NCBI RefSeq assembly: GCF_023556315.2
Contig: NZ_CP116221.1
Span: forward strand, 1,127,001-1,191,000
Reading direction: 5' to 3'
DNA from: Psychroserpens ponticola
Lineage (GTDB): Bacteria > Bacteroidota > Bacteroidia > Flavobacteriales > Flavobacteriaceae
Length of the DNA: 64,000 nt
Positions within the stretch are counted from its first letter, which is position 1. Each line of letters starts with the position of its first letter. The notes under the pieces were generated by a model, which did not search any database, had not been told where the DNA came from, and was given only the letters and a program-made list of their open reading frames with translations. The translations under genes and the position numbers were made by a program. Shown here one piece after another: positions 589 to 50,391 of this stretch.

Positions 589-632
589 CTAAGTTACTAA
601 CTAATTATGCTTTGTAAAATGATAAATATCAG
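589..632 (-). promoter_or_regulatory. class A (FNR-like) promoter module, reading left
   Basis: The palindrome TGATAAATATCA lies at 620-631 within the 14-mer 619-632. Exactly 22 bp away on the minus strand is a -7-like box TAACTTAG (596-589), which has one mismatch to TAnnTTTG. The nearest leftward gene starts at 379, so the leader would be about 200 nt, longer than in other copies of the module. The box mismatch and the distance make this one of the weaker copies. Confidence 0.45.
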
Positions 633-657
633 TTTGATATATTATTATTTATGCTTT

Positions 658-2031
658 TCAAAGACTTACTTTCTCTACATCTGTTAATTTGGGAATCTTA
701 GCATTCCAATTATAAACATCTTTTATTTTTACTCTAAACGCATCTAATGCTGTAGGCTCTCCATGAATTAAATAAATATGTTTAGGAGTGTTTTTAATCG
801 CACTCATCCAGTTTATTAAATCCTTTTGATCTGCATGAGCCGATAAACTTTCAATGGTTTTTATGGTAGCATTTACAGGATGATATTTTCCGAAAAAACG
901 AATTTCATGTGCACCATCTTGAAGTTGTCTTCCACGAGTGCCTTCTGCTTGATAACCAACTAATAAAACCGTTGTAGAAGGTTCATCTATAAGTTGTTGT
1001 AAATAGGTGAGAACTCTTCCTCCAGTAACCATTCCGCTTCCAGCAATTATAATTTTTGATCTTTTATCATCTATAGTTTCCCAAGTTTCTTTGTAAGATT
1101 GAATGATGTTCATATGATTATACATAGATTCATAATCTTGAGGCGATAATTTATGCCATTTTGGAAAACGTTTAAAAACGTCTAAGACATTATTTCCCAT
1201 AGGACTATCAACAAAAATCGGAATGTTCGGAATTCTATTTTCATTGTACAGTTTCCAAAGAATATACATAAGCGTTTGTAGTCGTTCAACAGCGAAACTA
1301 GGAATGATTAAATTTCCTTGATTATGTATGGTTTCTTTTATAATTTCAGTTAAAAGATCTTCTGCATTTTGTTCCGGATGAATTTTATTTCCATAGGTGC
1401 TTTCAATACATAAAAAATCTGCCCATTCTGGAGTTTTAGGGTCGTTTAATAGGTAATCATTTTGTCTACCAACATCTCCAGAAAACACAAAACGTTTACT
1501 ATTGATATCAATTTCTATAAATGTAGCGCCTATAATATGGCCATTATATTGAAAACGATACGAAATGTGATCTGATAATTGAATCCATTTATCTTCGATT
1601 TCTACCTCAAAACGTTTCATAGTGTTTTCAGCATCTTTGGCAGTATAAAAAGGAAGCGCAGGTTCATGTTTACTATATTTTTCTTTGTTTGCTTTATTGG
1701 CTTCTTCTTCATGAATTTTAGCGCTATCATTTAAAATGATTTCGGCGATTGCTAAGGTTGGTGCAGTGCCAATAATTTTACCTAAAAAACCTTGCTTTAT
1801 TAAACGCGGTAAGTAACCAACATGATCTAAATGGCCATGAGTTAATAGCACAACATCAATAGTTGAAACGTCAATATCAAGATTGTTCCAATTCATTTCT
1901 CTTAGCTCTTTAAGCCCTTGAAACATACCACAATCGATTAGGATGTTTTTTTCTGAAGTTTCGATGAGAAATTTTGAGCCAGTGACCACTCCAGCTGCTC
2001 CTAAAAAGTTGATTTTAACAAATTTTTCCAT
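658..2031 (-). CDS. MBL-fold beta-CASP RNA/DNA metallo-hydrolase
   Basis: This is a metallo-beta-lactamase fold nuclease of the beta-CASP (CPSF73/Ysh1-like) family, expected to act on RNA in the cytoplasm. The signature THGHLDHVGYLPRL gives the HxHxDH zinc site. Further zinc ligands are in GHIIGAT, FSGDVGR and the C-terminal SLSAHADQ and IHGEP blocks. The beta-CASP part contains IESTYGN, IIPSFAVERLQ, FVDSPMG and SGMVTGGR. The frame extends to a GTG at 2049, but the ATG at 2031 begins the conserved MEKFVKINFLGAAG and avoids overlap with the upstream gene, so I chose 2031. It follows 2042-2881 by about 10 nt and is probably co-transcribed with it. The family assignment is secure; the substrate is unknown. 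Confidence 0.9.
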   Translation of the reverse strand: MEKFVKINFLGAAGVVTGSKFLIETSEKNILIDCGMFQGLKELREMNWNNLDIDVSTIDVVLLTHGHLDHVGYLPRLIKQGFLGKIIGTAPTLAIAEIILNDSAKIHEEEANKANKEKYSKHEPALPFYTAKDAENTMKRFEVEIEDKWIQLSDHISYRFQYNGHIIGATFIEIDINSKRFVFSGDVGRQNDYLLNDPKTPEWADFLCIESTYGNKIHPEQNAEDLLTEIIKETIHNQGNLIIPSFAVERLQTLMYILWKLYNENRIPNIPIFVDSPMGNNVLDVFKRFPKWHKLSPQDYESMYNHMNIIQSYKETWETIDDKRSKIIIAGSGMVTGGRVLTYLQQLIDEPSTTVLLVGYQAEGTRGRQLQDGAHEIRFFGKYHPVNATIKTIESLSAHADQKDLINWMSAIKNTPKHIYLIHGEPTALDAFRVKIKDVYNWNAKIPKLTDVEKVSL

Positions 2032-2041
2032 AGTGCTTAAT

Positions 2042-2881
2042 TTAGTCACATAATTGTAAAATTTCAGTTGTAATTTTAGTTTTTCTCATTTCTGAGATGC
2101 CTAAATGATCTAAGTAAAAACGGTCTTGTATCAATTCTCTACAAAGCACAACATTTCTACTTAACAAAAATTGTTTTTCTCTATTGGTTAGTAAGGTCGA
2201 AACTGTGATTGGATATAAACCTAATCGATCAATTCTATCTTTTAGACCATTGTCTTTGGGATGATCCCAACTCAATAAATATAAACCAGCACAGCTTCCG
2301 TATTGTAGTGCATCTTTAGTGAATCTTGTATTTGTGACAACCCAACCCTCTGATAGTGAGGTTTCTTTTTTTTGATTTTGATTCCAATTTGCTTTAATAT
2401 CTTGATATCTTGAGTTGATGTATAATGGTATTTTAACATTGCAATTAAGTCCTTGTTCGCTATGAAATTTACATTCGATCATGGTGGCTTCAGAATTTTT
2501 ATGAGCGATAACATCTATTTCATGCGATACACATTTACCTTGTAGGATCGTGCCAACCTTGGTTTTATATCCTGAATAATTTAAAATGGCACTTACAAAA
2601 CGTTCAAAAGGAAATCCTGTTGGACCTAATTCATAAATAGCTTTCTTGAGTTTATACTTTGAAGCGAGTAAATTTTTGTTTTTTTTAAGTAAAGCAAAAG
2701 CTCTGTTGTAAATTTCTTTTGTAGAAATGCCTTGGTATAGTTCATCACGAACTTTATCTAGAATTTGATTGATGATCATATCATCTGCTCCAGTTCTTTT
2801 AAGTGACAAATACAATTTGTCTAGTGAGAATTTGACTTTTTCACCAGAGGATTTAATAACATCTATATTTTCAATTTTCAT
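2042..2881 (-). CDS. ATP-cone domain fused to a Mrr-like PD-(D/E)XK endonuclease
   Basis: The N-terminal 90 residues resemble the ATP-cone nucleotide-binding domain found in ribonucleotide reductases and NrdR (VIKSSGEKVKFSLDKLYLSL, then ISTKEIYNRAFALL). The second half resembles a restriction-endonuclease-like Mrr fold. EIDVIA followed by ATMIECKFH provides the D and ExK residues expected of a PD-(D/E)XK active site. Proteins of this architecture are widespread and usually unnamed. It is probably a nucleotide-sensing nuclease, but the role is inferred. It is first in a two-gene unit with the beta-CASP hydrolase. Confidence 0.75.
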   Translation of the reverse strand: MKIENIDVIKSSGEKVKFSLDKLYLSLKRTGADDMIINQILDKVRDELYQGISTKEIYNRAFALLKKNKNLLASKYKLKKAIYELGPTGFPFERFVSAILNYSGYKTKVGTILQGKCVSHEIDVIAHKNSEATMIECKFHSEQGLNCNVKIPLYINSRYQDIKANWNQNQKKETSLSEGWVVTNTRFTKDALQYGSCAGLYLLSWDHPKDNGLKDRIDRLGLYPITVSTLLTNREKQFLLSRNVVLCRELIQDRFYLDHLGISEMRKTKITTEILQLCD

Positions 2882-3829: not shown

Positions 3830-3843
3830 ATGATTAAAATCAT
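3830..3843 (-). promoter_or_regulatory. class A (FNR-like) palindrome upstream of a universal stress gene
   Basis: The core TGATTAAAATCA at 3831-3842 is a full match to TGAT-N4-ATCA and sits between two universal stress genes. No good -7 box lies at the standard 22-bp distance. A TAAATTTT box at 3788-3781 would instead put the palindrome near -60, a class I-like position. It is an orphan copy with different geometry. Confidence 0.45.
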
Positions 3844-4717: not shown

Positions 4718-5563
4718 TTAACGCGTTGTATTTTGCATTGCTAAAAGTGGTATTTTTAATCCAAGACTTACTTCATCAATGGTTGATGGAAATAGCATAT
4801 CTTCTAAAAAGGAATGTTGTGTATTAACCATTGTAATAATATCTATGTTTTGTTCGTCGATGTACGATGATATTGTATTAGTTACTTTTTTTTCATTTTT
4901 ATGTTTAAAATTCACGTCGTTTTCAGATAATGATTTTTGAATAAAAGCCTTATTGTCTTCCTGACGTATTGATAATTTATCACTTTTAGATATGTATAGC
5001 ACATCTATAACACTTCTGTATGATTTTGCCAACACTGCCAATAGTTTTAATTCTCTTCGTTTATATGGAATCATATAATTGGTTGGAAATAAAATATGTT
5101 TGGGTTGTGTATTAGTATAATTGGAAGGAATTGCTAGAACTGGACATTTTACATATTTTAAAACTTGAAATGTTTTGCTTCCAAATATAATATGTCGTTT
5201 GTCTGATTTACCTTTTGTTCCCATGACAATCAAATCTATATTTTTAGCATCTGCAATAAGGTTTGCTTCTTCAACTAATGTGTTATATGCTGAAAGGATC
5301 TGAAAGGTAAACCTCGGGTTTGGTGAAATTTCTTGAACAGTTTTAAGCAACTTTTCTAAGTTAGCTTGAGATTTATTTCTAACACCATCCAAAACATCCT
5401 CAAATACGTCACGTGATTTGAGATCATCATGGTCGTAAAACTCATTTTGATAAGCATGCATGAAATAGAATGTCGTTTTCTGGTATTTAAAAAATTCTAA
5501 GGCATATTTAATAGCATTCATTGAATTTTCTGAAAAATCGGTAGGAAGTAGTATCGATAGCAT
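4718..5563 (-). CDS. universal stress protein, two tandem UspA domains
   Basis: Two Usp domains are present: ILLPTDFSENSMNAI at the N-terminus, GTKGKSDKRHIIFGSKT as the nucleotide loop, and a degenerate second domain starting ILFPTNYMIPY. An upstream in-frame ATG exists at 5581, but the family always begins close to the I-L-L-P-T-D-F motif. The predicted transcription start near 5585 would leave only about 4 nt before 5581. I therefore chose ATG 5563. It is the first gene of a pair with 3851-4696. It is more divergent than its siblings: the loop has SDK where the others have AT or AS. Confidence 0.9.
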   Translation of the reverse strand: MLSILLPTDFSENSMNAIKYALEFFKYQKTTFYFMHAYQNEFYDHDDLKSRDVFEDVLDGVRNKSQANLEKLLKTVQEISPNPRFTFQILSAYNTLVEEANLIADAKNIDLIVMGTKGKSDKRHIIFGSKTFQVLKYVKCPVLAIPSNYTNTQPKHILFPTNYMIPYKRRELKLLAVLAKSYRSVIDVLYISKSDKLSIRQEDNKAFIQKSLSENDVNFKHKNEKKVTNTISSYIDEQNIDIITMVNTQHSFLEDMLFPSTIDEVSLGLKIPLLAMQNTTR

Positions 5564-5588
5564 AACGATTAGTTTTAACATTCACTAA

Positions 5589-5632
5589 TAAAATTAATGA
5601 AGAAATAATGTAAAAACTATGATATATATCAG
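5589..5632 (-). promoter_or_regulatory. class A (FNR-like) promoter module
   Basis: The palindrome TGATATATATCA is at 5620-5631 (14-mer 5619-5632). A 22-bp gap follows, then a minus-strand box TAATTTTA at 5596-5589, matching TAnnTTT with A at the last position. The inferred start near 5585 gives a leader of about 22 nt to the universal stress gene starting at 5563. Confidence 0.65.
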
Positions 5633-5785: not shown

Positions 5786-6625
5786 TTACTCATGCAATAC
5801 CAAAAAAGGAATATGCGTATGATATGTTATTTTTTCTACTTTTGAGTGAAACAAAATACTTTGAAAATAATTTAGATTTTTGGCAACCATGGCAATCAAG
5901 TCGATGTCTCTACTTTCAACAAAGCATTGTATAGCGTTTTCTACTTTTTTATTAGAAAGGAAATGAAAACTAGGTTTAAAATCTTCGAAATAATCATTTA
6001 ATAGGTCTTTACTTGTAAGTTGTTCAGTATTTAATGATAGATCTTTATTGTTAATATGAACAATACTTAAATTCGGTTTTATCGTATTTAAGATGTCTGT
6101 AATAGGTTGTAATGTGTTTATGTCATAAGATAAAGTGAAATCTGTAGGAAAGGCAATTTCTTTTAATTTTGAATAGTTAGCATGTTCTGGAACAACTAAA
6201 GTGGTACATTTTACTTTGGTAATAATATCTCCTGTATTGCTTCCAACGATATACTTTTTCAGTCCAGAGGCACCTTTTGTACCCATAATAATCATGTCTA
6301 TTTTCTTTTCTTCAACATGTTTTCTAATAGATTCAATAAAAAAAGAGTAATCAGTTAAAGTATAAAACTTGTGTTTTTCATTGTGTTTAACTTTAGAACT
6401 AATTTGTTTTAATAAGTCTCTTAGTTTTTGCTTTGACGGCTTAGTATATGCTTTTTCTATAACTTCTGCTGTTGGTACATAACCTATGTCTGCAGCAACT
6501 AGGTTTTCTAAGTTATTAATATGAAGCAGGTAAAAATTACAAGATGTATTTTCAAAAAAAGCGATAGCATATTTTATAGCATTGAATGCGTTATCTGAAA
6601 AGTCTGTAGGAAGTAAAATGTTCAT
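5786..6625 (-). CDS. universal stress protein, two tandem UspA domains
   Basis: MNILLPTDFSDNAFNAI opens the first domain and GTKGASGLKKYIVGSNTG is its ATP-binding loop. The second domain begins IAFPTDFTLSYD and again lacks a clear loop. It has 279 residues. It stands alone behind its own class A promoter (6648-6691). About 200 nt separate it from the next gene on the left; that gap holds the class A module of 4718-5563 and nothing else I can identify. It is likely an ATP-binding stress protein under oxygen or redox control. Confidence 0.92.
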   Translation of the reverse strand: MNILLPTDFSDNAFNAIKYAIAFFENTSCNFYLLHINNLENLVAADIGYVPTAEVIEKAYTKPSKQKLRDLLKQISSKVKHNEKHKFYTLTDYSFFIESIRKHVEEKKIDMIIMGTKGASGLKKYIVGSNTGDIITKVKCTTLVVPEHANYSKLKEIAFPTDFTLSYDINTLQPITDILNTIKPNLSIVHINNKDLSLNTEQLTSKDLLNDYFEDFKPSFHFLSNKKVENAIQCFVESRDIDLIAMVAKNLNYFQSILFHSKVEKITYHTHIPFLVLHE

Positions 6626-6647: not shown

Positions 6648-6691
6648 CAAATCTAAATGGTAGAGGATTAAAAAAATATGATATTTCTCAT
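6648..6691 (-). promoter_or_regulatory. class A promoter module with extended palindrome
   Basis: The centre is TGATATTTCTCA (6679-6690), one mismatch from TGAT-N4-ATCA. It is embedded in a perfect 7-bp inverted repeat AATATGA-N6-TCATATT. On the minus strand, 22 bp on, lies TAGATTTG (6655-6648), a full match to TAnnTTTG. The inferred leader to the universal stress gene start at 6625 is about 19 nt. Confidence 0.65.
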
Positions 6692-6713: not shown

Positions 6714-7766
6714 TTAATAGATATCCTGCAATTTCTGAAGGTCTAAAATTTTAATATTTCGACCTTCCAGCTCTATAATACCTTGTTTTTTAAAATCAGA
6801 GATGGTTCTAATTAATGTCTCTGTAGCAATACCTGCAACACTGGCCAAATCATTACGTGAAATTTTTATGGGATCTTGAGGTTTTGCATTAATTTTTTCT
6901 GCAAATCTTAAAATAGTAGAGGCAGTCTTTTTTTGTACAGAACTATAAGCCATTTGCAATAATTGATCTTTTACACCTGTAATATCGTAAGTTAGTAATT
7001 GAATGACTTCTAACGCAACTTTATGATTATTGATTAAAATCTTTTTAAGATCTGTTTTAGAAACACCTACTAGTTCTAAATCCTTCATAGCCATAGCAGT
7101 TTCTTTGTAAGGGATGTTTTTAGTGAATGAGGTGTATCCAAAAAGATCATCTTCTTTGTGGAGATCTGTGGTTAATTCTTTACCTTTTTCATCAAATTTA
7201 TAACATTTAACAACACCTTTAATTATTAAATAAATGAAGTTTGAATTATGACCTTCTTTGTAAATAATATCATTCTTTTTGTAATTTAAAATAGTTCCAT
7301 CGTCATCAAAAAAGTTTTTTAAATCATCTAAGGTTCTTAATTCATCTTCAGAAGTTGTTGAATTGTTTTGAAAAGATTCTCTTTCGTCTTTTAAAATGGC
7401 AGCTTTTGCAATTCTACTTTCAATAGCACTAATAATTTCATCTTCACTAAAGGGCTTTGTTATATAATCATCTGCACCTAAATCCATTCCCTTTCTTACA
7501 TCTTGTCGTTCAGTCTTAGCAGACAAAAATATAAAAGGGATAAACTTTGTGTCCTGATGTTGAGATAAGCTTTTGAGTACACCATAACCATCAAGTATAG
7601 GCATCATAATATCACAAATAATAATATCAGGTCTGTGTTTTTTAGTCATTTCAAGACCAATTTGTCCATTCGCAGCTGTTAGCACCTTATATTCAGAAAG
7701 TTCTAATAACTCTGCAGTGTTTTCTCTCAATACTATGTCATCTTCTATTAATAGTACTTTTTTCAT
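6714..7766 (-). CDS. receiver-CRP/FNR fusion transcriptional regulator
   Basis: A response-regulator receiver domain (residues 1-120: acidic pair D9/D10, phospho-acceptor D52 in ICDIMMP, DYITKPF) is fused to a cyclic-nucleotide-type effector domain (about 150-250, IIYKEGHNSNFIYLIIKG) and a Crp-type winged helix (about 290-350). The recognition helix reads TETLIRTISDF. E316 and R320 align with FNR E209/R213 and CRP E181/R185, which read the TGA half-site. Only two cysteines are present, so an FNR iron-sulfur cluster is excluded; input is probably phosphorylation. It overlaps the kinase gene by 4 nt. It is a good candidate to bind the class A palindromes around it, though this is inference. Confidence 0.88.
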   Translation of the reverse strand: MKKVLLIEDDIVLRENTAELLELSEYKVLTAANGQIGLEMTKKHRPDIIICDIMMPILDGYGVLKSLSQHQDTKFIPFIFLSAKTERQDVRKGMDLGADDYITKPFSEDEIISAIESRIAKAAILKDERESFQNNSTTSEDELRTLDDLKNFFDDDGTILNYKKNDIIYKEGHNSNFIYLIIKGVVKCYKFDEKGKELTTDLHKEDDLFGYTSFTKNIPYKETAMAMKDLELVGVSKTDLKKILINNHKVALEVIQLLTYDITGVKDQLLQMAYSSVQKKTASTILRFAEKINAKPQDPIKISRNDLASVAGIATETLIRTISDFKKQGIIELEGRNIKILDLQKLQDIY

Positions 7767-9268
7767 AATTGCGCTTGGTTTGGAAGTTCTATAATGAACG
7801 TTGAGCCTTTATGTTCTTGGCTTTCAAATGAAATAGAACCATTTAAATGTTCTAAATGATCTTTAACAATGTTTAATCCAATCCCTGTGCCTTGTATAAG
7901 TAAGACGTTTTCTGCCCTAAAATAACGATTGAATATGTTTTTGTGATCCTTTTCAGGAATTCCAATACCATTGTCTATAACTTTAAACGTCGTTCTATCG
8001 TTATTTTGAGTAATCTCAATATCTATATTGGTATTCTCTGGAGAGTATTTAATTGCATTGTATATTAAATTAGATAATGCTAATTCTACAATTTTTTCAT
8101 CTTGATATAAGGAAATATCATCAATATGTTCTGGGTAGTTGATTTGTTGACCATCTTTTAGTAGCATGTTTGCATTGTAGATGACTTCATTTAAAACTTT
8201 ACTTAATTTAAAGGTTGTAAATTTATAATTGACTTTACCTTTTTCTAATTTTTCTATAGAAAGAAAATCAGTTATGATTGTATTGAGGTATTGTACTTTG
8301 TCTGTAATTGTTTTAACATGTTTTTCTCTTTTGTCTTGTTGCTCTGTCAGTTTATATTTATTCAATAAAATGGTAGAAGTTAAAATGCCGCTTAGAGGTG
8401 TTTTGAATTCATGCGATACCATTGATAAAAACTTAGTTTTTAAATCATTGAGTTCTTTTTCAGCAGTTAAAGCCGTTTTCAATTCTTTAGTTCGTATTGC
8501 AACTGTCTTTTCTAATTTTTCAGTATAGTTTTTTTGTTCTGTGATGTCTAAAATAATAGCAACATATACATCTCTATCTCCTAGTTTTGAGCGTTGTAGG
8601 TGAACATTTACAGGGTATGTGCTTCCAGATTTTCGTTGATGTATCGTTTCAAATTCGATTTTTTCAATAGTTGATTGATTGAGTAATTTGAGTTCTTTTC
8701 TAAACTGCGATTCTGTATAGTTAGGTTTTATATCTACAGGTGACATCGTAATAATTTCTTCTAAACTATAGCCTATGTTTTTTTGTGCACCAACATTAGC
8801 ATTTATAAATTGTAGTGTTTTTGCATCAAATACATAAATCTCATTTAAGGATTCTAGAATAATTTTTGATAAATGATTTTTTTCTTGCTCTAATTTTTTT
8901 CGTTCTGTAATATCAACGATCAAGGCCATGACAAAATTCTGACCATAAACAGTAAAAGGATTTAAACTAGCTTCAATAGGGAAAATACTTCCGTCTTTTT
9001 TCGCGCCAAAAATATCACGACCATGTCCCATTCGACGCTGTTTGTGGTCTCTTACGAAACCTCTAAAATGTTCGCCATGGTTGGCATGATAATTTTGCGG
9101 TATTAAGATGTTTAAATGCTGATTTGACAGTTCTTTACTTTTGTATCCAAACATTAACTCTGCAGATTTGTTGGCTTCAACAATGTTTTGCTGTTCATCC
9201 ACAATAATTACGCCTTCTGAAACGGACTCTAAAAGGATATTAAAAATCTCTTGATCTTGCTTAAACAT
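7763..9268 (-). CDS. double-PAS sensor histidine kinase, FixL-like first PAS
   Basis: This is a soluble hybrid-free kinase of 501 residues without membrane segments. PAS 1 spans about 10-125, PAS 2 about 135-250, followed by a short coiled coil, a HisKA domain with H286 in VSHEFKTPLSG, and a HATPase with the NLIYNAIKYSP N box, DNGIGIP G1 and GTGIGLNIV G2. PAS 1 resembles the haem PAS of FixL: H64 in YHANHGEHF aligns with the FixL proximal haem histidine, and R84 in GHGRDIFGAKKDG aligns with the FixL ligand-switch arginine. Many non-haem PAS domains share part of this pattern, so oxygen sensing is only suggested. It is co-transcribed with the receiver-CRP regulator and is probably its kinase. 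Confidence 0.88.
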   Translation of the reverse strand: MFKQDQEIFNILLESVSEGVIIVDEQQNIVEANKSAELMFGYKSKELSNQHLNILIPQNYHANHGEHFRGFVRDHKQRRMGHGRDIFGAKKDGSIFPIEASLNPFTVYGQNFVMALIVDITERKKLEQEKNHLSKIILESLNEIYVFDAKTLQFINANVGAQKNIGYSLEEIITMSPVDIKPNYTESQFRKELKLLNQSTIEKIEFETIHQRKSGSTYPVNVHLQRSKLGDRDVYVAIILDITEQKNYTEKLEKTVAIRTKELKTALTAEKELNDLKTKFLSMVSHEFKTPLSGILTSTILLNKYKLTEQQDKREKHVKTITDKVQYLNTIITDFLSIEKLEKGKVNYKFTTFKLSKVLNEVIYNANMLLKDGQQINYPEHIDDISLYQDEKIVELALSNLIYNAIKYSPENTNIDIEITQNNDRTTFKVIDNGIGIPEKDHKNIFNRYFRAENVLLIQGTGIGLNIVKDHLEHLNGSISFESQEHKGSTFIIELPNQAQL

Positions 9269-9366: not shown

Positions 9367-9410
9367 CTGATTTATATCATTCTTTTTATGTTATGATAAC
9401 TCTATTTTTA
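9367..9410 (+). promoter_or_regulatory. class A (FNR-like) promoter module
   Basis: The palindrome TGATTTATATCA lies at 9368-9379 (14-mer 9367-9380). A 22-bp gap follows, then TATTTTTA at 9403-9410. The inferred start near 9414 gives a leader of about 20 nt to the TerB-like gene at 9434. Confidence 0.65.
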
Positions 9411-9433: not shown

Positions 9434-9844
9434 ATGACAATTCAAAAAAAATTAACGCTCGAGTTTTATCAAAATTTAGGAAAATTATTTTATGCAATAG
9501 CCGCTTCTGATGGTGTCGTAAGAGATTTGGAATTTGCTAAATTAAAAGCGCTTGTAAAACAGCAATGGCTAGAAGTTGATGATGTGCTTGATGCCTTTGG
9601 TGCTGATGCAGCTTACCAAATAGAAATTGTTTTTGATTGGTTAAATGAAGAAGACTTAACAAGTGCAGAAATTTGTTTTAACGATTTTGTAAACTATAAA
9701 AAAGAACAAGCGCATTTATTTACAGATAAGGTAAAGTCTTTAATTTTAAAAACTGCTTCGGCTGTGGCTTATGCATTTTCTGGTATTAATAAAGCAGAGT
9801 TGATTATGCTTGCGAAACTTGAAATGGCCTTAAAAAATATATGA
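9434..9844 (+). CDS. TerB-like helical protein
   Basis: This 136-residue helical protein has AIAASDGVVRDLEFAKLKALV, which resembles the acidic metal-binding motif of the TerB/TerB-like (tellurite-resistance B) superfamily. No signal peptide is seen. It is the first gene of the operon TerB-like/70-residue protein/CbpA/CbpM/MscS behind a class A module. In such families the role is thought to be stress-related and possibly membrane-associated; the exact function here is unknown. Confidence 0.65.
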   Translation: MTIQKKLTLEFYQNLGKLFYAIAASDGVVRDLEFAKLKALVKQQWLEVDDVLDAFGADAAYQIEIVFDWLNEEDLTSAEICFNDFVNYKKEQAHLFTDKVKSLILKTASAVAYAFSGINKAELIMLAKLEMALKNI

Positions 9845-12326: not shown

Positions 12327-12370
12327 GTAACAAAAGTTACTATATAAGTCTGTCTAATCCTATAAATTTG
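12327..12370 (+). promoter_or_regulatory. class B promoter module (GTAAC-N4-GTTAC)
   Basis: GTAACAAAAGTTAC at 12327-12340 is a perfect inverted repeat of 5-bp arms around four bases. After 22 bp comes TAAATTTG at 12363-12370, a full match to TAnnTTTG. The inferred leader to the start at 12387 is about 12 nt. The palindrome centre would lie near -41, the class II activator position. Confidence 0.7.
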
Positions 12371-12386: not shown

Positions 12387-12749
12387 ATGAGAAAAATAAT
12401 ATTAGTAATGTCAATATTTAGTTCAATTTTTGGGATGACTGCACAGCAATTAGATCAAATAAAAGTTTTAGAACCTAGCGATTATAAAATAGCTATTGAA
12501 AGTAAGAATGTACAACTTATAGATGTACGAACAAGTAGAGAATACAATTCCGAACATATTAAAAATGCTTTAAATATAGATGTCTTAAATAGAAAAACCT
12601 TTATAGCTTATTTTAAGGAGTTAGATCCAAACGAACCAGTTTATTTATATTGTAGGTCTGGAAGTAGAAGTCAAAGGGCAACCAAATTATTAGTAGAGTT
12701 AGGCTTCAAAGAGATTTACGATTTAAAAGGTGGCATTTTAAATTATTAA
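12387..12749 (+). CDS. periplasmic rhodanese-like protein
   Basis: A 120-residue single-domain rhodanese with an N-terminal signal peptide (cleavage likely after MTAQ). LIDVRTSREYNSEHI and the active-site loop YCRSGSRS (C89) are diagnostic. Such proteins carry sulfane sulfur on the cysteine. It is first in an operon with a dihaem lipoprotein and a thioredoxin, behind a class B module, suggesting a role in periplasmic sulfur or redox chemistry. Confidence 0.9.
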   Translation: MRKIILVMSIFSSIFGMTAQQLDQIKVLEPSDYKIAIESKNVQLIDVRTSREYNSEHIKNALNIDVLNRKTFIAYFKELDPNEPVYLYCRSGSRSQRATKLLVELGFKEIYDLKGGILNY

Positions 12750-12752
12750 ATC

Positions 12753-13748
12753 ATGAAAAAAACATTAATTATTTTTACGTTATCTCTATTCATTTTTAGT
12801 TGTAATAATGAAAAAAAGAATACAACACTTACCTCAGTAAAAACGCTTGAAGGAGAAAGTGCTCATCCTGGTAAAAAGTTAATGGAGACTAATTGTTATG
12901 TGTGTCATAGTCCAACAGCTAGTCAAGATGATAGAGTAGGACCTCCAATGATTGCTATAAAAAAACATTATATAGACAGTAATACTTCAAAAGATGAATT
13001 TATAAAATCCATGCAAGCTTGGATAAAGAATCCAAAAGAAGATGATGCTAAAATGTTTGGAGCCGTAAAACGTTTTGGACTAATGCCTAAGCAATCTTTT
13101 CCAGATGAAACTATTCAGCAAATAGCAGATTATATGTTTGATAATGAAATAGAGCAACCAATTTGGTTTGAAGATCATTTTAAAGGTAAAAAAGAAAAAG
13201 GCAAGGGAAATAATAAAGGAAAAGGAATGCACAAGCAACAGGCGCAATCTAGTTTTGAAAAGTTGCCGTATGGAGAACGTGGCTTAACATATGCACTATC
13301 AACGAAAGCAGTTTTGGGTAAAAATCTCATGGGTACAATTCAAAAGAAAGGCGTTATAGAAGCTTTAGCTTTTTGCAATGAACAAGCATATCCTTTAACA
13401 GATAGTATGTCTGTAGTACATAATGCTAATATCAAACGTGTTTCAGATAAACCTAGAAATCAAAATAACCAAGCGAATTCATTTGAAATAAATAAAATCG
13501 AAACCTTTAAAAAGCAATTAAAAAATAAATTAGAGATTGAACCTATTGTTGCAGAAATAGAAGAAAAAGTCCATGTATATTATCCTATTATTACAAATGA
13601 TATGTGCTTGAAATGTCATGGCACACCAAATCAGTCTGTAACTAATGAAACATTAAATAAGCTTCAGCAATTATATCCAAACGATAAGGCTTTAGGATAT
13701 AATATAAATGAAATTAGAGGTATTTGGAGTGTTACTTTTGATAAATAA
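12753..13748 (+). CDS. dihaem c-type cytochrome lipoprotein with DUF3365
   Basis: The lipoprotein signal ends at C17 (IFSC). The first haem site CYVCH (48-52) belongs to a cytochrome c domain with a likely axial Met in FGLMPKQSFPDE. After a Lys/Gly linker (about 148-165) comes a DUF3365 (Tll0287-like) domain, with a second haem site CLKCH at about 284-288 in DMCLKCHGTP. It is an outer- or inner-membrane-anchored electron carrier. It lies 3 nt after the rhodanese gene and 12 nt before a thioredoxin gene, so the three are co-transcribed. Confidence 0.88.
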   Translation: MKKTLIIFTLSLFIFSCNNEKKNTTLTSVKTLEGESAHPGKKLMETNCYVCHSPTASQDDRVGPPMIAIKKHYIDSNTSKDEFIKSMQAWIKNPKEDDAKMFGAVKRFGLMPKQSFPDETIQQIADYMFDNEIEQPIWFEDHFKGKKEKGKGNNKGKGMHKQQAQSSFEKLPYGERGLTYALSTKAVLGKNLMGTIQKKGVIEALAFCNEQAYPLTDSMSVVHNANIKRVSDKPRNQNNQANSFEINKIETFKKQLKNKLEIEPIVAEIEEKVHVYYPIITNDMCLKCHGTPNQSVTNETLNKLQQLYPNDKALGYNINEIRGIWSVTFDK

Positions 13749-13760
13749 ATCAAGTCAGGT

Positions 13761-14060
13761 ATGAGTAAATTTTCAGAATTAATAAATCAAGATAAACCGG
13801 TTTTAGTAGATTTTTTTGCAGAGTGGTGTGGACCATGTAAAATGATGAGTCCTATTTTAAAACAGGTAAAAGACAATTTAGGAGATAAAGTAGCAATTAT
13901 AAAAATTGATGTCGATAAGAACCAAGCTTTAGCTGCAAAATATCAAGTGAGAGGTGTGCCAACACTTATGCTGTTTAAAAAAGGGAAGCAAGTTTGGCGA
14001 CAATCAGGTGTGCTTCAAAAAGATGAAATTATAAACATTATTACTTCTAAGGGATCATAA
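13761..14060 (+). CDS. trxA: thioredoxin
   Basis: A 99-residue cytoplasmic thioredoxin: WCGPCK at 22-27, IKIDVDKNQALAAKYQVRGVPTLMLF with the cis-Pro GVPT. There is no signal peptide. It is last in the class B rhodanese/cytochrome operon. The gene symbol is by family only, as the organism probably has further thioredoxins. Confidence 0.9.
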   Translation: MSKFSELINQDKPVLVDFFAEWCGPCKMMSPILKQVKDNLGDKVAIIKIDVDKNQALAAKYQVRGVPTLMLFKKGKQVWRQSGVLQKDEIINIITSKGS

Positions 14061-14149: not shown

Positions 14150-14193
14150 CTGATAAGTATCATATTAATTTTTAGTGTAATACTCTAATTTTA
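14150..14193 (+). promoter_or_regulatory. class A (FNR-like) promoter module
   Basis: TGATAAGTATCA at 14151-14162 is followed 22 bp after the 14-mer by TAATTTTA at 14186-14193. The inferred start near 14197 leaves about 25 nt to the small ORF at 14222. This placement is the main reason for calling that short ORF a gene. Confidence 0.65.
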
Positions 14194-14221: not shown

Positions 14222-14371
14222 ATGATTTCTCAAAGCATTGCATTATCGAACTGGACTAATGGTGTTGTTATGATTACTATATTTGGGCTAGTTTGTTTCG
14301 TTTTAATTGGATTTATAGTTAACTCTATGACCAGTAACGATAGGGATAAAAGAGAACCTAAAGAAAGATAG
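14222..14371 (+). CDS. 49-residue single-span membrane protein
   Basis: The frame from ATG 14222 to TAG 14369-14371 encodes 49 residues. A short polar N-terminus is followed by one hydrophobic span (about residues 14-34, VVMITIFGLVCFVLIGFIV) and a charged tail (SNDRDKREPKER), a topology typical of small accessory membrane proteins. It sits between a class A module and a strong terminator, so it is a complete single-gene unit. I do not recognise the family; small subunits or stabilisers of respiratory complexes look like this, but that is only an analogy. Confidence 0.6.
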   Translation: MISQSIALSNWTNGVVMITIFGLVCFVLIGFIVNSMTSNDRDKREPKER

Positions 14372-16618: not shown

Positions 16619-16996
16619 CTATGCTTGAGGTGGATGAAAAAAAACGTTTGTATTGTTGAACGAATATAGGTTTTGGTAAACTATAGGGTTTTGTTTTTTT
16701 ATAGTTTTCTTTTGAAGAAAAACTATGGCTTCAAATGCATTTGAAAATAAAGTGAGTTCTTTAAAATCGATTATACTTTCTGGAGTTTTCTGATCTTTAT
16801 CTTGAGATTTAGCAACTTTTTTTAGATGACATTTTCCATTACATTCTAATTCTGGTTGGTCCTTATTTTCGCATAATGCTTCTACAAAGCCAACAGGATC
16901 TAAATTGTAATACGCATAAGTGAACGTTACTCTTGTACTATTAAATAGAAGTAGAGATGTTAAAACTATTGAGAATATATAGGCGCTAATTTTCAT
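16619..16996 (-). CDS. exported Cys-rich protein upstream of the copper receptor
   Basis: A 125-residue protein with a hydrophobic signal or anchor segment (residues 3-22) and a compact cluster CENKDQPELECNGKCHLKK near residues 42-60, giving three cysteines and a histidine in 18 residues. This could bind copper. I know no characterised homologue. It precedes the OprC/NosA-like receptor on the same strand, so a role in copper handling is inferred. The predicted start of transcription is only about 2 nt before the ATG, so the message may be nearly leaderless. Confidence 0.7.
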   Translation of the reverse strand: MKISAYIFSIVLTSLLLFNSTRVTFTYAYYNLDPVGFVEALCENKDQPELECNGKCHLKKVAKSQDKDQKTPESIIDFKELTLFSNAFEAIVFLQKKTIKKQNPIVYQNLYSFNNTNVFFHPPQA

Positions 16997-17001: not shown

Positions 17002-17045
17002 CAAAGATAATATATAGCGCTTTTTTTTAAGATGATTTTTATCAT
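17002..17045 (-). promoter_or_regulatory. class A (FNR-like) promoter module
   Basis: TGATTTTTATCA at 17033-17044 is followed on the minus strand by 22 bp and TATCTTTG (17009-17002), a full match to TAnnTTTG. The inferred start near 16998 almost coincides with the ATG at 16996. Confidence 0.68.
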
Positions 17046-17121: not shown

Positions 17122-17165
17122 GTTACAAATGTTACAAACTAAGAATGTGTTGTAGAGTAACTTTA
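17122..17165 (+). promoter_or_regulatory. class B promoter module
   Basis: GTTACAAATGTTAC at 17122-17135 matches GTAAC-N4-GTTAC with one mismatch in the left arm. The -7 box TAACTTTA is at 17158-17165, again 22 bp on. The inferred leader to the peroxiredoxin start is about 28 nt. Confidence 0.6.
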
Positions 17166-17974: not shown

Positions 17975-18018
17975 GTGATAAATGTTACACAGTATATATC
18001 GTTTGTGTTGTATTTTTA
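17975..18018 (+). promoter_or_regulatory. class B promoter module of the cytochrome bd operon
   Basis: GTGATAAATGTTAC at 17975-17988 has a perfect right arm and a 3/5 left arm; the box TATTTTTA at 18011-18018 is at the standard 22-bp distance. The inferred start near 18022 leaves about 14 nt to ATG 18036. This makes an upstream in-frame ATG at 17982, which lies inside the palindrome, unlikely to be used. Confidence 0.55.
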
Positions 18019-27984: not shown

Positions 27985-28028
27985 GTAACTTAAGTTACTG
28001 TACAGCTTTAAAAAGAGAATTACCTTTA
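27985..28028 (+). promoter_or_regulatory. class B promoter module of the sulfide oxidation operon
   Basis: GTAACTTAAGTTAC at 27985-27998 is a fully palindromic 14-mer; TACCTTTA at 28021-28028 follows after 22 bp. The inferred start near 28032 leaves about 13 nt to ATG 28045. Confidence 0.7.
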
Positions 28029-31327: not shown

Positions 31328-31371
31328 GTAACTTATGTTACTGACTTCGGTCTTTATCTGATGTAAATTTG
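31328..31371 (+). promoter_or_regulatory. class B promoter module of the first RND operon
   Basis: GTAACTTATGTTAC at 31328-31341 (perfect 5-bp arms) and TAAATTTG at 31364-31371 (full match), separated by 22 bp. The inferred leader to ATG 31391 is about 16 nt. The minus-strand gene at 31257 has no box at the matching distance, so only the rightward operon appears to be controlled. Confidence 0.7.
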
Positions 31372-32702: not shown

Positions 32703-32754
32703 TCTCGACTGCACTCGAGGAGACAGAGTATTATCTGGTCAAGCGCAGTCGAGA
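32703..32754. repeat. inverted repeat with TCTCGACTGC / GCAGTCGAGA ends
   Basis: 10-bp arms at 32703-32712 and 32745-32754 enclose a partly palindromic centre (CACTCGAGG). This is the REP-like CTCGACTGCGCTCGAG family scattered through flavobacterial genomes. It sits between the tolC-like and adaptor genes. Confidence 0.75.
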
Positions 32755-32778
32755 CCTAATTAATAAACAAATTACAAA

Positions 32779-33858: not shown

Positions 33859-33862
33859 CTAA

Positions 33863-33980
33863 AAAGCCGCGTTAAGGATAGAAACGACATCCTTTTTACG
33901 TCAGTTCGAGTGAATTTGCCTAAGCAAATTTGTATCGAGAACAAGTAAAAAGATATAGTGGATAGCCTGTTAAAACGCCC
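33863..33980. repeat. dispersed flavobacterial repeat with nested hairpins
   Basis: A spacer element that includes a small hairpin AAGGAT-N9-ATCCTT followed by T's (33874-33897), the TCAGTTCGAGTGA block, an inner palindrome AATTTGC-N4-GCAAATT (33913-33930) and TGTATCGAGAAC. The block pair recurs at 37275-37339. The first hairpin could attenuate pump expression relative to the adaptor. Confidence 0.6.
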
Positions 33981-33996
33981 AAAATATTAAACTCAA

Positions 33997-36900: not shown

Positions 36901-37191
36901 TTAGCAGGAATTATGGTTAGGAATTCTGTATTACTGATTGATTTTATAAACATAAGAACAGCAGAAGGCATACCACTTAAACAAGCGGCAATTGAAGCAG
37001 GAGCAGTGCGTACTACACCAATTCTATTAACAGCAGGAACCGTTGTTATTGGAGCATTTGTAATACTATTTGATCCTATTTTTCAAGGATTAGCAATTTC
37101 ATTAATGGGAGGAACTATTGTTTCAACAGTGTTGACATTATTAGTGGTGCCTTTAGTGTATTATATGATAGAGAAAAAGAACTTTAAATAA
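33997..37191 (+). CDS. RND efflux permease, AcrB/HAE1-like
   Basis: 1064 residues, full length for the family. An N-terminal membrane helix (about 13-32) is followed by the first periplasmic domain, membrane segments 2-6 (about 345-520, with VFVTGIVVDDSIIIAENMHRHF carrying the proton-relay Asp pair), the second periplasmic domain and a C-terminal membrane bundle. It is proton-driven. The divergent second periplasmic half (YGPDYDEQIKVANSVQ) suggests a metal- or organic-cation-type pump rather than classic AcrB. Confidence 0.92.
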   Translation: MKEGIAGKIAKVFMQSKLTVLLMIVFMVVGVYSSFLIPREEEPQIDVPMADIFVGYSGASPTEVESRVIKPLEQLISNIKGVEYVYSTSMKEQGMVIVQFYVGEDIERSFVKLYNEINKHMDQMPQGVTFPLVKTRAIDDVPMLGLTLWSEHYDDYQLSQMALELEAEIKKVNDVSTTHKIGGRNRQLRVVLDKDKLASSGLDFLSVSEMIKANNSQMSSGSFDKNDTEFLITTGEFLESVIDVENLVVGVQQNQPIYLKQVAQIIDGPEVPQNYVSLGFGAGSEKSTDYKSEYPAVTISVAKRKGADAMKLSEIIIDKVDHLRTTLIPDDVHVEVTRNYGETASHKVSELLWHLIGSIIAVTIVVMLAMGWRGGLVVFLSVPITFALTLLSYYMMDYTLNRITLFALVFVTGIVVDDSIIIAENMHRHFKMKRLPFKQAALYAINEVGNPTILATFTVIASVLPMAFVSGLMGPYMAPMPIGASIAMILSLFVALTITPYLGYIFLREKDKKEAEEKPEKAVEDTLIYRIYNKFERPLLESRGKRWIFLIGTFVVLIGTMVLFFTNSVAVKMLPFDNKNEFQVVIDMPEGSTLERTGVVTQEISQYLSTRPEVVNYQNYVGTSAPITFNGLVRHYDLRGGSNMADIQVNLLAKEERTVQSHDIAKLLRPEIQKIASKYNANVKLVEVPPGPPVLSTIVAEVYGPDYDEQIKVANSVQGILKKTDDVVDIDWMVEDDQTEYQFDINKEKAMLYGVAPQQIAYTMNMALSNRSITNLYDEDAVNQIGLVLALDEKEKSTITDISQLKVKSIQGNMIPIADLVTITETTAAKSIYRKNQKRVVYVMADMAGELESPAYAILGMEEKLKEIPLPKDYELNEMYLGQPDFEDNYTVKWDGEWQITLEVFRDLGIAFLGAIILIYILIVGWFQNFKAPIVMMVAIPLSLIGIILGHWIMGAFFTATSFIGMIALAGIMVRNSVLLIDFINIRTAEGIPLKQAAIEAGAVRTTPILLTAGTVVIGAFVILFDPIFQGLAISLMGGTIVSTVLTLLVVPLVYYMIEKKNFK

Positions 37192-37959: not shown

Positions 37960-38003
37960 GTAACATTTGCTACAGACGAAATGATGTGTTTTTAATATCT
38001 TCG
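37960..38003 (+). promoter_or_regulatory. class B promoter module of the heavy-metal RND operon
   Basis: GTAACATTTGCTAC at 37960-37973 (one mismatch in the right arm) and TATCTTCG at 37996-38003 (one mismatch to TAnnTTTG) at the standard 22-bp distance. The inferred leader to 38012 is only about 5 nt. Confidence 0.55.
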
Positions 38004-38011: not shown

Positions 38012-38401
38012 ATGAGTAAATTACTAGCCATAATATTCTCTTTTTTGATTCTTATTCAAAGTTTCAATATTAATTTTGAAGACATTTCAAAATTCAAAAT
38101 TTTATTGGAGCATGCTAATTATCATGCAGAAACTTATGGCGATTCATTTGTTGAATTTATAGCTGAACATTATGGAGATGCTAAATACCAACATGCTGGT
38201 GAGCACGAAGAACATAAAGACTTACCGTTTAACGATAGTCAGCATCAACTTACGCATATTAATTCGTCTTTTATTTTAAATTCGATTAGTTGTAATATTG
38301 AATATTCTTCTTTTACTGAAATTCCTTTAAATTTCTTATACAAGGAATCGTCTTCCTTATTTGAAAAACTTGCTGTTTTTCAGCCTCCAAGATTCGCATA
38401 A
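38012..38401 (+). CDS. His-rich exported protein preceding the CzcA operon
   Basis: 129 residues with an N-terminal signal segment (residues 3-20) and a histidine-rich middle: HANYHAET, EHYGDAKYQHAGEHEEHKD, HQLTH. It is likely a periplasmic metal chaperone or sensor of the heavy-metal efflux operon that follows. I know no characterised homologue; proteins of this kind commonly precede CzcA genes in flavobacteria. Confidence 0.7.
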   Translation: MSKLLAIIFSFLILIQSFNINFEDISKFKILLEHANYHAETYGDSFVEFIAEHYGDAKYQHAGEHEEHKDLPFNDSQHQLTHINSSFILNSISCNIEYSSFTEIPLNFLYKESSSLFEKLAVFQPPRFA

Positions 38402-44032: not shown

Positions 44033-44076
44033 CTGATGAAAATCATAGTCTGAAAATCGTAGTTTAACTAATTTAG
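44033..44076 (+). promoter_or_regulatory. class A (FNR-like) promoter module
   Basis: TGATGAAAATCA at 44034-44045 is followed 22 bp after the 14-mer by TAATTTAG at 44069-44076, one mismatch to TAnnTTTG. The inferred leader to 44120 is about 40 nt. The variant box ending TTAG is shared with the copy at 589-632. Confidence 0.5.
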
Positions 44077-44119: not shown

Positions 44120-44998
44120 ATGAAATATTTATACCTAGTATTGCTGATTTTAGTCTTTACAAGTTGTAAAAAAGACTATCGTAAAGACTCTTTCAATGAT
44201 GTTGAATACACTATTATCACAGATTCACTGGTTGTAGATACGATTCAAACTTCTGAAAAGGATATTAAGCCTTTGGATAAAACAATTTCCATTAAGATAA
44301 AGCAAAAAGGATTGATTGAAAAAAAAGACGAAAGAGAAGTGTTTGAGAAATTGATTATCGAGAAAAAATATCTCATAGATAAGAAGGATTACACTATAAA
44401 TTTTAATTATCCATTACTTAATGAATCTTTTAAGCCTACGCACATAAATTTTAATGAGTTTATTGAAAATTATTATGCAAATGTGGTTAAAACCGAATCT
44501 GAAATTATAGAGAGCAAGTTATTGTGTGATAGTATTACAGCCTCAAAATTTAGAGAAGAGCGTTATATAGATTATAAAATTTATATCGTTAATGATCAGC
44601 TTATGAGTGTGCTTTTTTATAAAGAGAATTTTTATTCTGGTGCAATGCATCCTAGCTATTCTTTTGATGGTTTTAATTTTGATTTAAATAGAGGTGTTTT
44701 TATGACCTATGAGGACTTTTTTAATGAAGGTTCAGAAGATGAATTAGTCACACTTATAAATGAAAAAATAAGCCAAAAAATAGGAAAAGGAGACGTGTAC
44801 TATGACTGTTGGGAATTATCTTCAGATGATTTTTTTAAAAGTAAAAACAACTTCGTACTCAACGATACTTATGTGGCGTTTTATTTTGATGACTGTGTAA
44901 TGTGTCCATCTTATACAGGTACTTATTCTATTGAACTTCCGTTAGTAGAATTGCTTTCAGTTTTAAAAAAATACGATTTAAATCCTTTAGTCTTTTAA
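44120..44998 (+). CDS. lipoprotein with DUF3298-like C-terminal domain
   Basis: 292 residues, lipoprotein signal ending at C16 (VFTSC). The C-terminal half (DYKIYIVNDQLMSVLFYKENFYSGAMHP; YVAFYFDDCVMCPSYTG; IELPLVELL) resembles the DUF3298/RsiV-like peptidoglycan-associated fold. Its role is unknown. It is first of two genes behind a class A module. Confidence 0.65.
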   Translation: MKYLYLVLLILVFTSCKKDYRKDSFNDVEYTIITDSLVVDTIQTSEKDIKPLDKTISIKIKQKGLIEKKDEREVFEKLIIEKKYLIDKKDYTINFNYPLLNESFKPTHINFNEFIENYYANVVKTESEIIESKLLCDSITASKFREERYIDYKIYIVNDQLMSVLFYKENFYSGAMHPSYSFDGFNFDLNRGVFMTYEDFFNEGSEDELVTLINEKISQKIGKGDVYYDCWELSSDDFFKSKNNFVLNDTYVAFYFDDCVMCPSYTGTYSIELPLVELLSVLKKYDLNPLVF

Positions 44999-46618: not shown

Positions 46619-46624
46619 AATGAT

Positions 46625-48187: not shown

Positions 48188-48231
48188 CAAATGTATAGTA
48201 ATCATGTCCTGAAAAAAATGATATAAATCAT
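48188..48231 (-). promoter_or_regulatory. class A promoter module of the Mla-type operon
   Basis: TGATATAAATCA at 48219-48230 plus, on the minus strand after 22 bp, TACATTTG (48195-48188), a full match to TAnnTTTG. The leader is about 19 nt. It is back to back with the module at 48240. Confidence 0.7.
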
Positions 48232-48239: not shown

Positions 48240-48283
48240 CTGATTTATATCATTTTAATTGATGCTATTTAGAATTAATTTTA
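48240..48283 (+). promoter_or_regulatory. class A promoter module of the helical protein/patatin operon
   Basis: TGATTTATATCA at 48241-48252 plus TAATTTTA at 48276-48283. Its palindrome is 8 bp from that of the leftward module, so each divergent operon has its own site. The inferred start is near 48287. Confidence 0.65.
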
Positions 48284-49490: not shown

Positions 49491-49536
49491 GTCCAAAATT
49501 GATGTTTATGATTCCATAAAAGCCTAAGGAATCTAT

Positions 49537-50319
49537 TTATTCATTCAAACTATCATCAGTATATCTATTAAATAAGCTCACTTGCAAAGTCTTTCTAGCA
49601 TCTTTTAATAGTTGTTCAACGTCTTCAATCGTAGTATTTCTTATAAGAGCAATTTCTTCTAGTTTTATGTGTTGATTTGTGAATAATTCATAAACATTAC
49701 GTATGTCTGAAGGTAAATTGTGTAAAACCATTGCTATATGATTTTGGATTCTTTCTTCATCTATACTCTTGTCTAATTTATCAACCAAAGCTTTTTCATT
49801 ATCTTCTACAAATACATGGTTTAATGTATAATTATTATGATTGTAAGACATATCATCTAAATCTTCAATCATAATTAAATCTCCATCTCCATCTGTGCTA
49901 AATTTCTCTTGCATTTCATCCCATTCTGGTTTAGAATACTCTTCAATATTTTTAAAGAAAAAATCATCAAACTCTTCTTCTACAATGATATCTTCCAATA
50001 ATTCATTGGTTTTTTTGAATAACCAGAGGTAAAAACTATTTTCATTTTCAACACCTTCAATGCGATCATAAATCTCAATAAAGAGCTGATCGATGAAATC
50101 ATCGGCTTTATATTTTCCTTTAGAAAAATGGCCTTTTTTTATTGCTGTATTGAGTCTTCCGTTGACATACTTTCGTATTTCGGGCATTATTTTTAATACC
50201 AATTCATTAAAAGACGTTTGATTGCCTTCTTTTTTTAATTGAATAAGATTTGAAAATGTTTTGGTTACGAAAAGACGGAACTCATGTTTGTTTTGGTAAT
50301 AAGAAACATTTGTTTTCAT
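49537..50319 (-). CDS. sigma-70-like (ECF-type) factor, divergent
   Basis: About 260 residues. The C-terminal part (NLPSDIRNVYELFTNQHIKLEEIALIRNTTIEDVEQLL) is a sigma region 4-like helix-turn-helix; the N-terminal part (FNELVLKIMPEIRKYVNGRL, then DDFIDQLFIEIYDRI) is like region 2. A long acidic insert (about 115-175) separates them, unusual for ECF factors. A GTG at 50328 is possible, but ATG 50319 gives the usual 25-nt leader from the class A module. Confidence 0.72.
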   Translation of the reverse strand: MKTNVSYYQNKHEFRLFVTKTFSNLIQLKKEGNQTSFNELVLKIMPEIRKYVNGRLNTAIKKGHFSKGKYKADDFIDQLFIEIYDRIEGVENENSFYLWLFKKTNELLEDIIVEEEFDDFFFKNIEEYSKPEWDEMQEKFSTDGDGDLIMIEDLDDMSYNHNNYTLNHVFVEDNEKALVDKLDKSIDEERIQNHIAMVLHNLPSDIRNVYELFTNQHIKLEEIALIRNTTIEDVEQLLKDARKTLQVSLFNRYTDDSLNE

Positions 50320-50347
50320 AATAGACACACTAATTATGTATAGACTT

Positions 50348-50391
50348 TAAATCTATTTAGAAAAAAAAATGTATAAAATGATATTTATCAT
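50348..50391 (-). promoter_or_regulatory. class A promoter module of the sigma-like gene
   Basis: TGATATTTATCA at 50379-50390; minus-strand TAGATTTA (50355-50348) after 22 bp. The inferred leader to 50319 is about 25 nt. It is the last class A module seen before the accessory region. Confidence 0.65.

Follow-up and report, generated by a model that had tools for sequence, protein, structure and literature searches.

The window analyzed here, a 64-kb stretch of the Psychroserpens ponticola genome (G000:C1:1127001-1191000 in our coordinates; 30% G+C, 88.6% coding; 4.03-Mb genome in a single contig), contains 16 copies of a compact module that consists of a 14-bp inverted repeat, a 22-bp gap, and an 8-bp box, each followed by an open reading frame (ORF). 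We propose that these modules are, very probably, class II promoters at which CRP/FNR activators of at least two types, sharing the same geometry, act on the primary sigma factor of Flavobacteriaceae. The likely owner of most sites of the larger palindrome class in the window is a two-component system encoded in the window itself, namely, REC-CRP, a response regulator that includes a CRP protein, and the adjacent PAS-PAS histidine kinase.

All 16 palindrome-gap-box copies reported in a preliminary description of this DNA were borne out by the sequence, and its box rule, TAnnTT(T/A)(G/A) or one mismatch, holds: 15 boxes match, and the box of module 37960 (TATCTTCG) deviates at one position (modules are denoted by their first coordinate; on the minus strand, the box occupies the low-coordinate end). 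The distance from the box to the start of the ORF is 5-31 nt for 14 modules, 43 nt for 44033, and 209 nt for 589, so that the previously given range, 5-40 nt in all but one copy, is correct for 14 copies, with two copies rather than one outside it. The modules had also been taken for a single type. Their shared geometry stands, but the palindromes split into two motif classes, which go with different regulators of the CRP family: 10 TGAT (MTGAT-N4-ATCAK) and 5 GTAAC (GTAAC-N4-GTTAC) modules, plus one hybrid, 17975 (GTGAT-N4-GTTAC). The inverted repeats of modules 6648, 17122, 37960, and 17975 are imperfect. Both the two-class structure and the regulator encoded inside the window had been missed. 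A single regulator for all 16 modules is ruled out by the two palindrome classes with their separate regulator associations.

The spacing of the module was compared with several controls. Under a relaxed rule (9 of 10 palindrome letters and 5 of 6 box letters), the window contains 11 TGAT modules, compared with a mean of 0.84 and a maximum of 3 in 25 dinucleotide shuffles, and 5 GTAAC modules (mean 0.08, maximum 1 in the shuffles); 400 kb sampled from the same genome yielded, per 64 kb, 1.12 and 0 such modules, respectively. The exact pattern MTGATN4ATCAK occurs 46 times genome-wide, against 24 occurrences of the reversed pattern, and 10 of the 46 sites fall in the window, which makes up 1.6% of the genome (a uniform distribution would put 0.7 there). 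Among these 46 sites, a TANNTTTR box with all six letters matching (6/6) is found after exactly 22 bp (N22) in nine cases, and in zero to three cases at every other spacing from 0 to 44; for 5/6 boxes, the numbers are 13 at N22 and zero to six elsewhere. All 10 exact sites of the window are intergenic, and 33 of the 36 outside it were flagged within ORFs. Two of these 36 have a 6/6 box at N22, one before a gene encoding a CBS pair (80-nt leader) and the other at a distance of 194 nt from the unidentified ORF that follows it. The 232 site-directions (9-of-10 palindrome) in the 400-kb sample included not a single 6/6 box at N22. The genome-wide and shuffled-sequence scans and the count within genes, which the preliminary description had proposed as checks, agree with it, given the N22 peak and the excess of window modules far above the shuffles.

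The same spacing is found in relatives. In the best 80 of 269 REC-CRP loci (10 kb on each side where the contig allows), of which the closest come from Psychroserpens, Psychroflexus, and Winogradskyella (82-85% identity), we counted 221 exact palindromes (205 intergenic) and 151 boxes at N22 (147 distinct sequences), compared with 2 at N21, 6 at N23, and a mean of 1.7 (maximum 6) at other spacings. The 151 modules, 145 intergenic and 6 within ORFs, represent 33 genera or unnamed groups, and at least one is present in 65 of the 80 loci. Most start codons follow the box by about 16-30 nt, with a tail up to 1704 nt (these distances are based on the longest ORF and counted one higher than those in the window). 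The surroundings of REC-CRP genes in nine other genomes (17 stretches) contain 21 boxes at N22 and a mean of 0.33 (maximum 3) elsewhere, and a scan of 120 genomes of the family detected 604 modules in 98 of them, whereas the reversed control pattern gave 28 (added up by eye). Judged by these counts, the TGAT ruler is strict across many genera. The letters that make up palindrome and box are frequent at 30% G+C, but chance in an A+T-rich genome, opposed by the shuffles, the 400-kb sample, the reversed pattern, and the 120 genomes, is a practically negligible explanation, and for the TGAT class it is already refuted by the spacing peak.

Class II promoters of Escherichia coli have a 14-bp palindrome centered at -41.5, the classical activator position, and 22 bp from it to the first T of the -10 element; we take the 22-bp gap of the module to be the E. 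coli class II FNR spacing. In Flavobacterium, the box has been placed relative to transcription starts: according to the available text of the respective papers, it lies at -12 to -5 in the start-site map of F. psychrophilum (PMC9723704) and, in F. johnsoniae, reads T-12 A-11 T-8 T-7 T-6 G-5, with the start 4 or 5 nt further on in the probable promoters (PMC6847099). With this box position and the fixed N22, the palindrome spans -48 to -35 and is centered at -41.5, that is, a CRP/FNR-type two-fold palindrome occupies the class II position. The boxes, which were preselected as TANNTTTR, correspond to the TAnnTTTG -7 box of the Bacteroidota primary sigma factor, with the canonical final G in the minority (A 64%, G 36% in 145 modules). 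In the logo of these 145 modules, G is nearly absent at -9 and amounts to 15% at -10, and the palindrome is directional, with C at the distal end in 70% and T at the proximal end in 94%. Among the 151 modules, the C is confined to the distal end (CTGAT with proximal ATCAT) in 101, and 2 show the mirror image. The class II architecture put forward previously thus gains support from the N22 peak, the scarcity of the module in genes and shuffles, its presence in 98 of 120 genomes, and the published box position. From motifs, spacing, conservation, and the co-occurrence and proximity of regulators, all read from sequence, we infer binding, activation, and control by phosphorylation: a CRP/FNR-superfamily dimer would bind the palindrome at -41.5, replacing a weak -33 element, and would touch the RNA polymerase sitting on the TAnnTTTG box at -12 to -5, a contact that would dictate the 22-bp gap.

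Four Crp-type helix-turn-helix (HTH) matches were identified in the genome, one of them, REC-CRP, inside the window. This protein belongs both to the CRP/FNR superfamily (PF00027, 3e-16; PF13545, 7.9e-15) and to the response regulators (PF00072, 2.1e-29; the motif IICDIMMP, for the phospho-acceptor Asp, in 77 of the 80 loci; an adjacent kinase gene). The recognition helix G[IV]ATE[ST][LF]IR was matched in 59 of the 80 proteins, whereas one other match was false and two gave nothing; the remaining proteins, among the C-termini listed, include five with GIATETLIR and one with GIALESLIR. The TE..IR helix is shared with a stand-alone FNR-like protein (G000:C1:2578326-2579000), in the N-terminal part of which a CxxC was seen.

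Among the 120 genomes, homologues of REC-CRP (E <= 1e-40, a threshold that takes in distant copies at 40-45% identity) are present in 54 and orthologues of the FNR-like protein (E <= 1e-60; weaker matches, many of them REC-CRP or other paralogues, were scored absent) in 69. Genomes with both regulators carry 9.30 modules on average (n = 27), those with REC-CRP only 5.93 (n = 27), those with the FNR-like protein only 4.29 (n = 42), and those with neither 0.54 (n = 24, 17 with zero). When genomes smaller than 2.5 Mb are set aside (99 remain), all four regulator contrasts hold (p = 1.7e-5, 3.3e-5, 1.2e-4, and 0.027), each regulator has an effect both in the presence and in the absence of the other, and the genomes with neither (n = 8) contain one module in total. 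In 11 REC-CRP genomes, those listed in full (G049 and others were left out), REC-CRP is encoded within 40 kb of 48 of the 85 modules, with at most 2.3 expected. The base at the distal end differs as well: C is found in 107 of the 151 modules of REC-CRP loci vs 9 of 33 A/C sites when the genome has the FNR-like protein only (p = 5e-6), and, among the matches listed, in 11 of 21 sites from 5 REC-only genomes vs 9 of 41 sites from 8 FNR-only genomes (p = 0.022).

We propose that REC-CRP, under the control of the adjacent PAS kinase, reads TGAT sites and that the FNR-like paralogue, which has the same helix, would read such sites too. That every TGAT site, also within the window, is read exclusively by the FNR-like protein, and that REC-CRP binds something else, appears quite unlikely: the common helix, the modules retained in FNR-only genomes, and the occurrence of CTGAT in these genomes are compatible with this possibility, but the modules of the 27 genomes that have REC-CRP but lack an FNR orthologue at the above threshold, the clustering of modules near REC-CRP genes, and the distal-C preference that separates REC-CRP loci and REC-only genomes from FNR-only ones argue against it.

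The gene of the kinase is transcribed divergently from a 136-aa gene. In the 80 loci and the window together, the module that separates them is 29-100 nt away from the kinase start in 48 of 49 cases. Class II autoregulation of the kinase operon is not claimed, since boxes in the backward direction show no peak (4 of 51 at N22); a negative feedback on the kinase is possible. The absence of an N22 peak toward the kinase, with up to 10 boxes at other spacings, is what a repressor site might show. Nevertheless, palindromes that generally serve as repressor operators upstream of constitutive promoters are very unlikely, because repression would not call for an operator at a single fixed distance ahead of the -7 box, and the palindrome is at the activator position.

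For the GTAAC sites, the candidate reader is a third CRP protein, which has a recognition helix of the form SRVV[IV]SR and the gene of which often neighbors a TauE gene. The gene of this protein (own copy, G000:C1:1744204-1744833) has a match at E <= 1e-25 in 103 of the 120 genomes, paralogues included, and the helix [HN][TS]SRVV[IV]SR is present in 30 of 30 loci. In these 30 loci, a 6/6 box follows the GTAAC palindrome 31 times at N22, 9 times at N21, and at most twice at any other spacing, and in 24 of them the palindrome lies within 70 bp of the 3' end of the gene. No 9-of-10 GTAAC site was found in four of the 30 loci, including our own, in which a two-mismatch site, GCTACTTTTGTTAC-N22-TAGCTTTG, precedes a TauE-like gene. 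Across 12 genomes (a count that leaves out G093), the SRVVxSR gene is within 5 kb of 13 of 69 exact GTAAC sites, with 0.22 expected. Within the window, each of the three exact GTAAC sites is followed by a 6/6 box at N22; outside it, this holds for none of three. This assignment appears good, though weaker than that for the TGAT class. HcpR2 proteins, including those of Bacteroides, have a published palindrome, GTAACnnnnGTTAC, which they were predicted to bind, as well as a Glu181-to-Pro change, in the available text of the source (PMC1274295), and another CRP paralogue of this genome (G000:C1:1030706-1030915, L003) has an Arg-Pro helix (GTSRPTLN) as in HcpR2. It is nonetheless unlikely that this paralogue reads the GTAAC sites, because the 9 kb around the Arg-Pro paralogue gene (L091) contain no GTAAC module, and the palindrome is found instead next to the SRVVxSR gene.

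Target genes were grouped by single-linkage BLAST clustering (modules without an ORF of at least 40 aa within 160 nt were skipped, and the hybrid module was excluded). The Usp cluster includes 130 relaxed TGAT modules in 74 of 81 sources (80 loci and the window), and the 136-aa gene family follows a TGAT module in 51 of the 81. Further TGAT clusters are Hsp20 (11), S30AE ribosome-hibernation protein (11), FixS (5), thioredoxin (4), and DnaJ-like (3); the GTAAC clusters are TauE (17), rhodanese with metallo-beta-lactamase-fold proteins (14), TolC (5), ferredoxin-like (3), and cytochrome c (3), where thioredoxin, DnaJ-like, ferredoxin-like, and cytochrome c were named from sequence. Targets in REC-only genomes are Usp, HPF, and the 136-aa family, plus HemN- and FixS-like proteins, and those in FNR-only genomes are HemN-, FixS-, CBS-, HPF-, NadA-, and one Usp-like (both sets were named from sequence, without a family search). 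The TGAT targets (Usp, HPF, and Hsp20) look like a dormancy or low-oxygen set and the GTAAC targets like a sulfur/redox set, from which low oxygen and a sulfur compound, respectively, would be the candidate signals. As a tentative reading, to which we give somewhat less than an even chance, this would be a DosR-like dormancy/low-oxygen system in Flavobacteriaceae, in which a PAS kinase and a response regulator with a whole CRP/FNR protein as output use an FNR operator and promoter geometry to drive genes for Usp, ribosome hibernation, Hsp20, and membrane proteins. Because REC-CRP in genomes lacking FNR is also associated with FNR-type targets (hemN and fixS), the role of the switch may have passed from the iron-sulfur cluster to phosphorylation.

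Several observations weigh against parts of this interpretation. The loci are related, so that the counts are not independent, and an exact intergenic TGAT palindrome upstream of a Usp gene (3830-3843) has no box at N22. The distal C in 6 of 10 window sites is only suggestive in comparison with FNR-only genomes (p = 0.07). REC-CRP-only and FNR-only genomes have HemN-, FixS-, and HPF-like targets in common, so that either regulator may own a given site where both exist, as they do here, and genome G048 (82% complete) has seven modules, with neither regulator found. Exact GTAAC palindromes number six genome-wide vs nine for the reversed control, and the count with one mismatch was unusable, with the control exceeding it (238 vs 142); the palindrome itself is therefore not enriched, and the case for the GTAAC class rests on spacing and proximity. 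The GTAAC gap, with nine boxes at N21, is nearly rather than strictly fixed; 6 of the 12 genomes have no GTAAC site near the SRVVxSR gene, and the 80 REC-CRP loci contain three exact GTAAC sites, two with a module. Finally, 10 targets in the window have a partner behind a module elsewhere, and for five no partner behind modules was found in the scanned relatives (Table 1).

Table 1. Modules in the window, with REC-CRP and its kinase (cluster sizes include the window)
Feature	Coordinates	Strand	Downstream gene and remarks	Partner behind a module elsewhere
TGAT module	589..632	-	Palindrome 619-632 CTGATATTTATCAT, box 589-596 TAACTTAG; gene ATG 379 (-), 209-nt leader	Yes
TGAT module	5589..5632	-	Usp, 4718-5581	Yes
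TGAT module	6648..6691	-	ATGAGAAATATCAT, one mismatch; Usp, 5786-6625	Yes
REC-CRP, 350 aa	6714..7766	-	Receiver, cNMP-binding domain, Crp HTH; proposed activator of TGAT modules	
PAS-PAS histidine kinase	7763..9268	-	Probable partner of REC-CRP; homologue directly upstream of REC-CRP in 77/80 loci	
TGAT module	9367..9410	+	136-aa gene, 9434-9844; divergent kinase gene ~100 nt away (site upstream)	Yes
GTAAC module	12327..12370	+	Rhodanese, cytochrome c, and thioredoxin genes, 12387-14060	Yes, cluster of 14 GTAAC modules
TGAT module	14150..14193	+	49-aa ORF, 14222-14371 (one hydrophobic helix by eye)	Yes
TGAT module	17002..17045	-	125-aa gene, 16619-16996, and TonB receptor, 14451-16553	None in relatives
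GTAAC module	17122..17165	+	GTTAC-N4-GTTAC; peroxiredoxin, 17197-17925	None in relatives
Hybrid module	17975..18018	+	cydAB	
GTAAC module	27985..28028	+	28045-29502, weak sulfide:quinone reductase likeness (57.5 bits, cut-off 525)	None in relatives
GTAAC module	31328..31371	+	TolC/RND efflux genes, 31388-37191	Yes, cluster of 5 GTAAC modules
GTAAC module	37960..38003	+	38012-38401 and CusA/CzcA-type permease	None in relatives
TGAT module	44033..44076	+	DUF3298 gene, 44120-44998	Yes, cluster of 3
TGAT module	48188..48231	-	MlaE/MlaF/MlaD-like genes	Yes, cluster of 6
TGAT module	48240..48283	+	128-aa gene and patatin-like phospholipase	None in relatives
TGAT module	50348..50391	-	Sigma-70-like gene, 49537-50328 (under family cut-off)	Yes, cluster of 5

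The target of module 589 has eight homologous ORFs behind relaxed TGAT modules in six relatives' loci (E <= 1e-3, identities 23-69%), and the 49-aa ORF behind module 14150 has a homologue behind the same module in locus L286 (52% identity). A non-coding RNA after either module is ruled out, as the ORF that follows each of them has module-preceded homologues in other loci. The 49-aa ORF, on the plus strand, is below the cut-off of the ORF list, and a terminator-like hairpin was seen by eye 3' of it. An Rfam scan of the window at gathering thresholds gave a single match, not located at modules 14150 or 589: a Flavo-1 RNA (RF01705, 47.5 bits) at 33861-33976 on the plus strand, between the RND adaptor and permease genes. 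CydA probably starts at 18036 rather than at 17982, given that similarity to the CydA family sets in at residue 19 of the long ORF. The minus-strand sigma-70-like protein behind module 50348 is divergent, with all family matches under the cut-off. At 658-2049 on the minus strand, the window encodes a beta-CASP ribonuclease-like protein with matches to the aCPSF1 and Cas14 models, both under the cut-off.

The building blocks described here, namely, the class II geometry, the -7 box, and the FNR-like and HcpR2-like motifs, are already known; the two-class structure, the REC-CRP system as the likely owner of most TGAT sites in the window, and the strictness of the ruler across genera appear to be new. 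Homologues of CRP/FNR in Flavobacteriales have been treated as MalR-like in PMC8510549, and no such module is described in the available part of that paper; the words Fnr, Crp, and palindrom are absent from the available main text of PMC9723704. Judging by titles and the openings of abstracts, which is weak evidence of novelty, no description of the module or of a REC-CRP regulon was found in the openly licensed literature. The regulatory logic of E. coli is hard to transfer to Bacteroidota because the promoters differ, and the module suggests that the class II ruler distance has been kept despite the different box recognized by the sigma factor. The motif can be read by strand because its two halves differ, and together with the near-exact spacing, this should make regulon operons predictable from sequence in many genera. 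The module also ties a two-component system to a dormancy-like gene set.

Compared with the class II FNR/CRP promoters of E. coli, the palindrome position and the 22 bp to the first T of the -10/-7 element are alike (E. coli numbering as generally known), whereas the element here is TAnnTTTG rather than TATAAT, and one of the proposed regulators is a REC fusion. The DosR regulon of mycobacteria places Usp, Hsp20, ribosome hibernation, and CBS proteins under two-component control by DosR, a NarL-type regulator. The likeness to DosR lies in the targets only; here, a complete CRP protein, with FNR-like sites, takes the place of the NarL-type output, and the system thus falls outside the DosR regulon proper. 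HcpR2 (Rodionov 2005, PMC1274295), as far as the available text goes, has an identical palindrome consensus and belongs to the CRP/FNR superfamily, but in the GTAAC-linked gene, with its SRVVxSR helix, the residue aligned by eye with position 181 is Val rather than Pro, and the neighbor is TauE rather than hcp (no search was aimed at hcp). The closest match for the box is the sigma-A -7 promoter of Flavobacterium, which, in the available text of PMC9723704 and PMC6847099, shares TAnnTTTG at -12 to -5 and the near absence of G at -9 with the modules, and differs at -10, where G makes up 15% here and virtually zero there.

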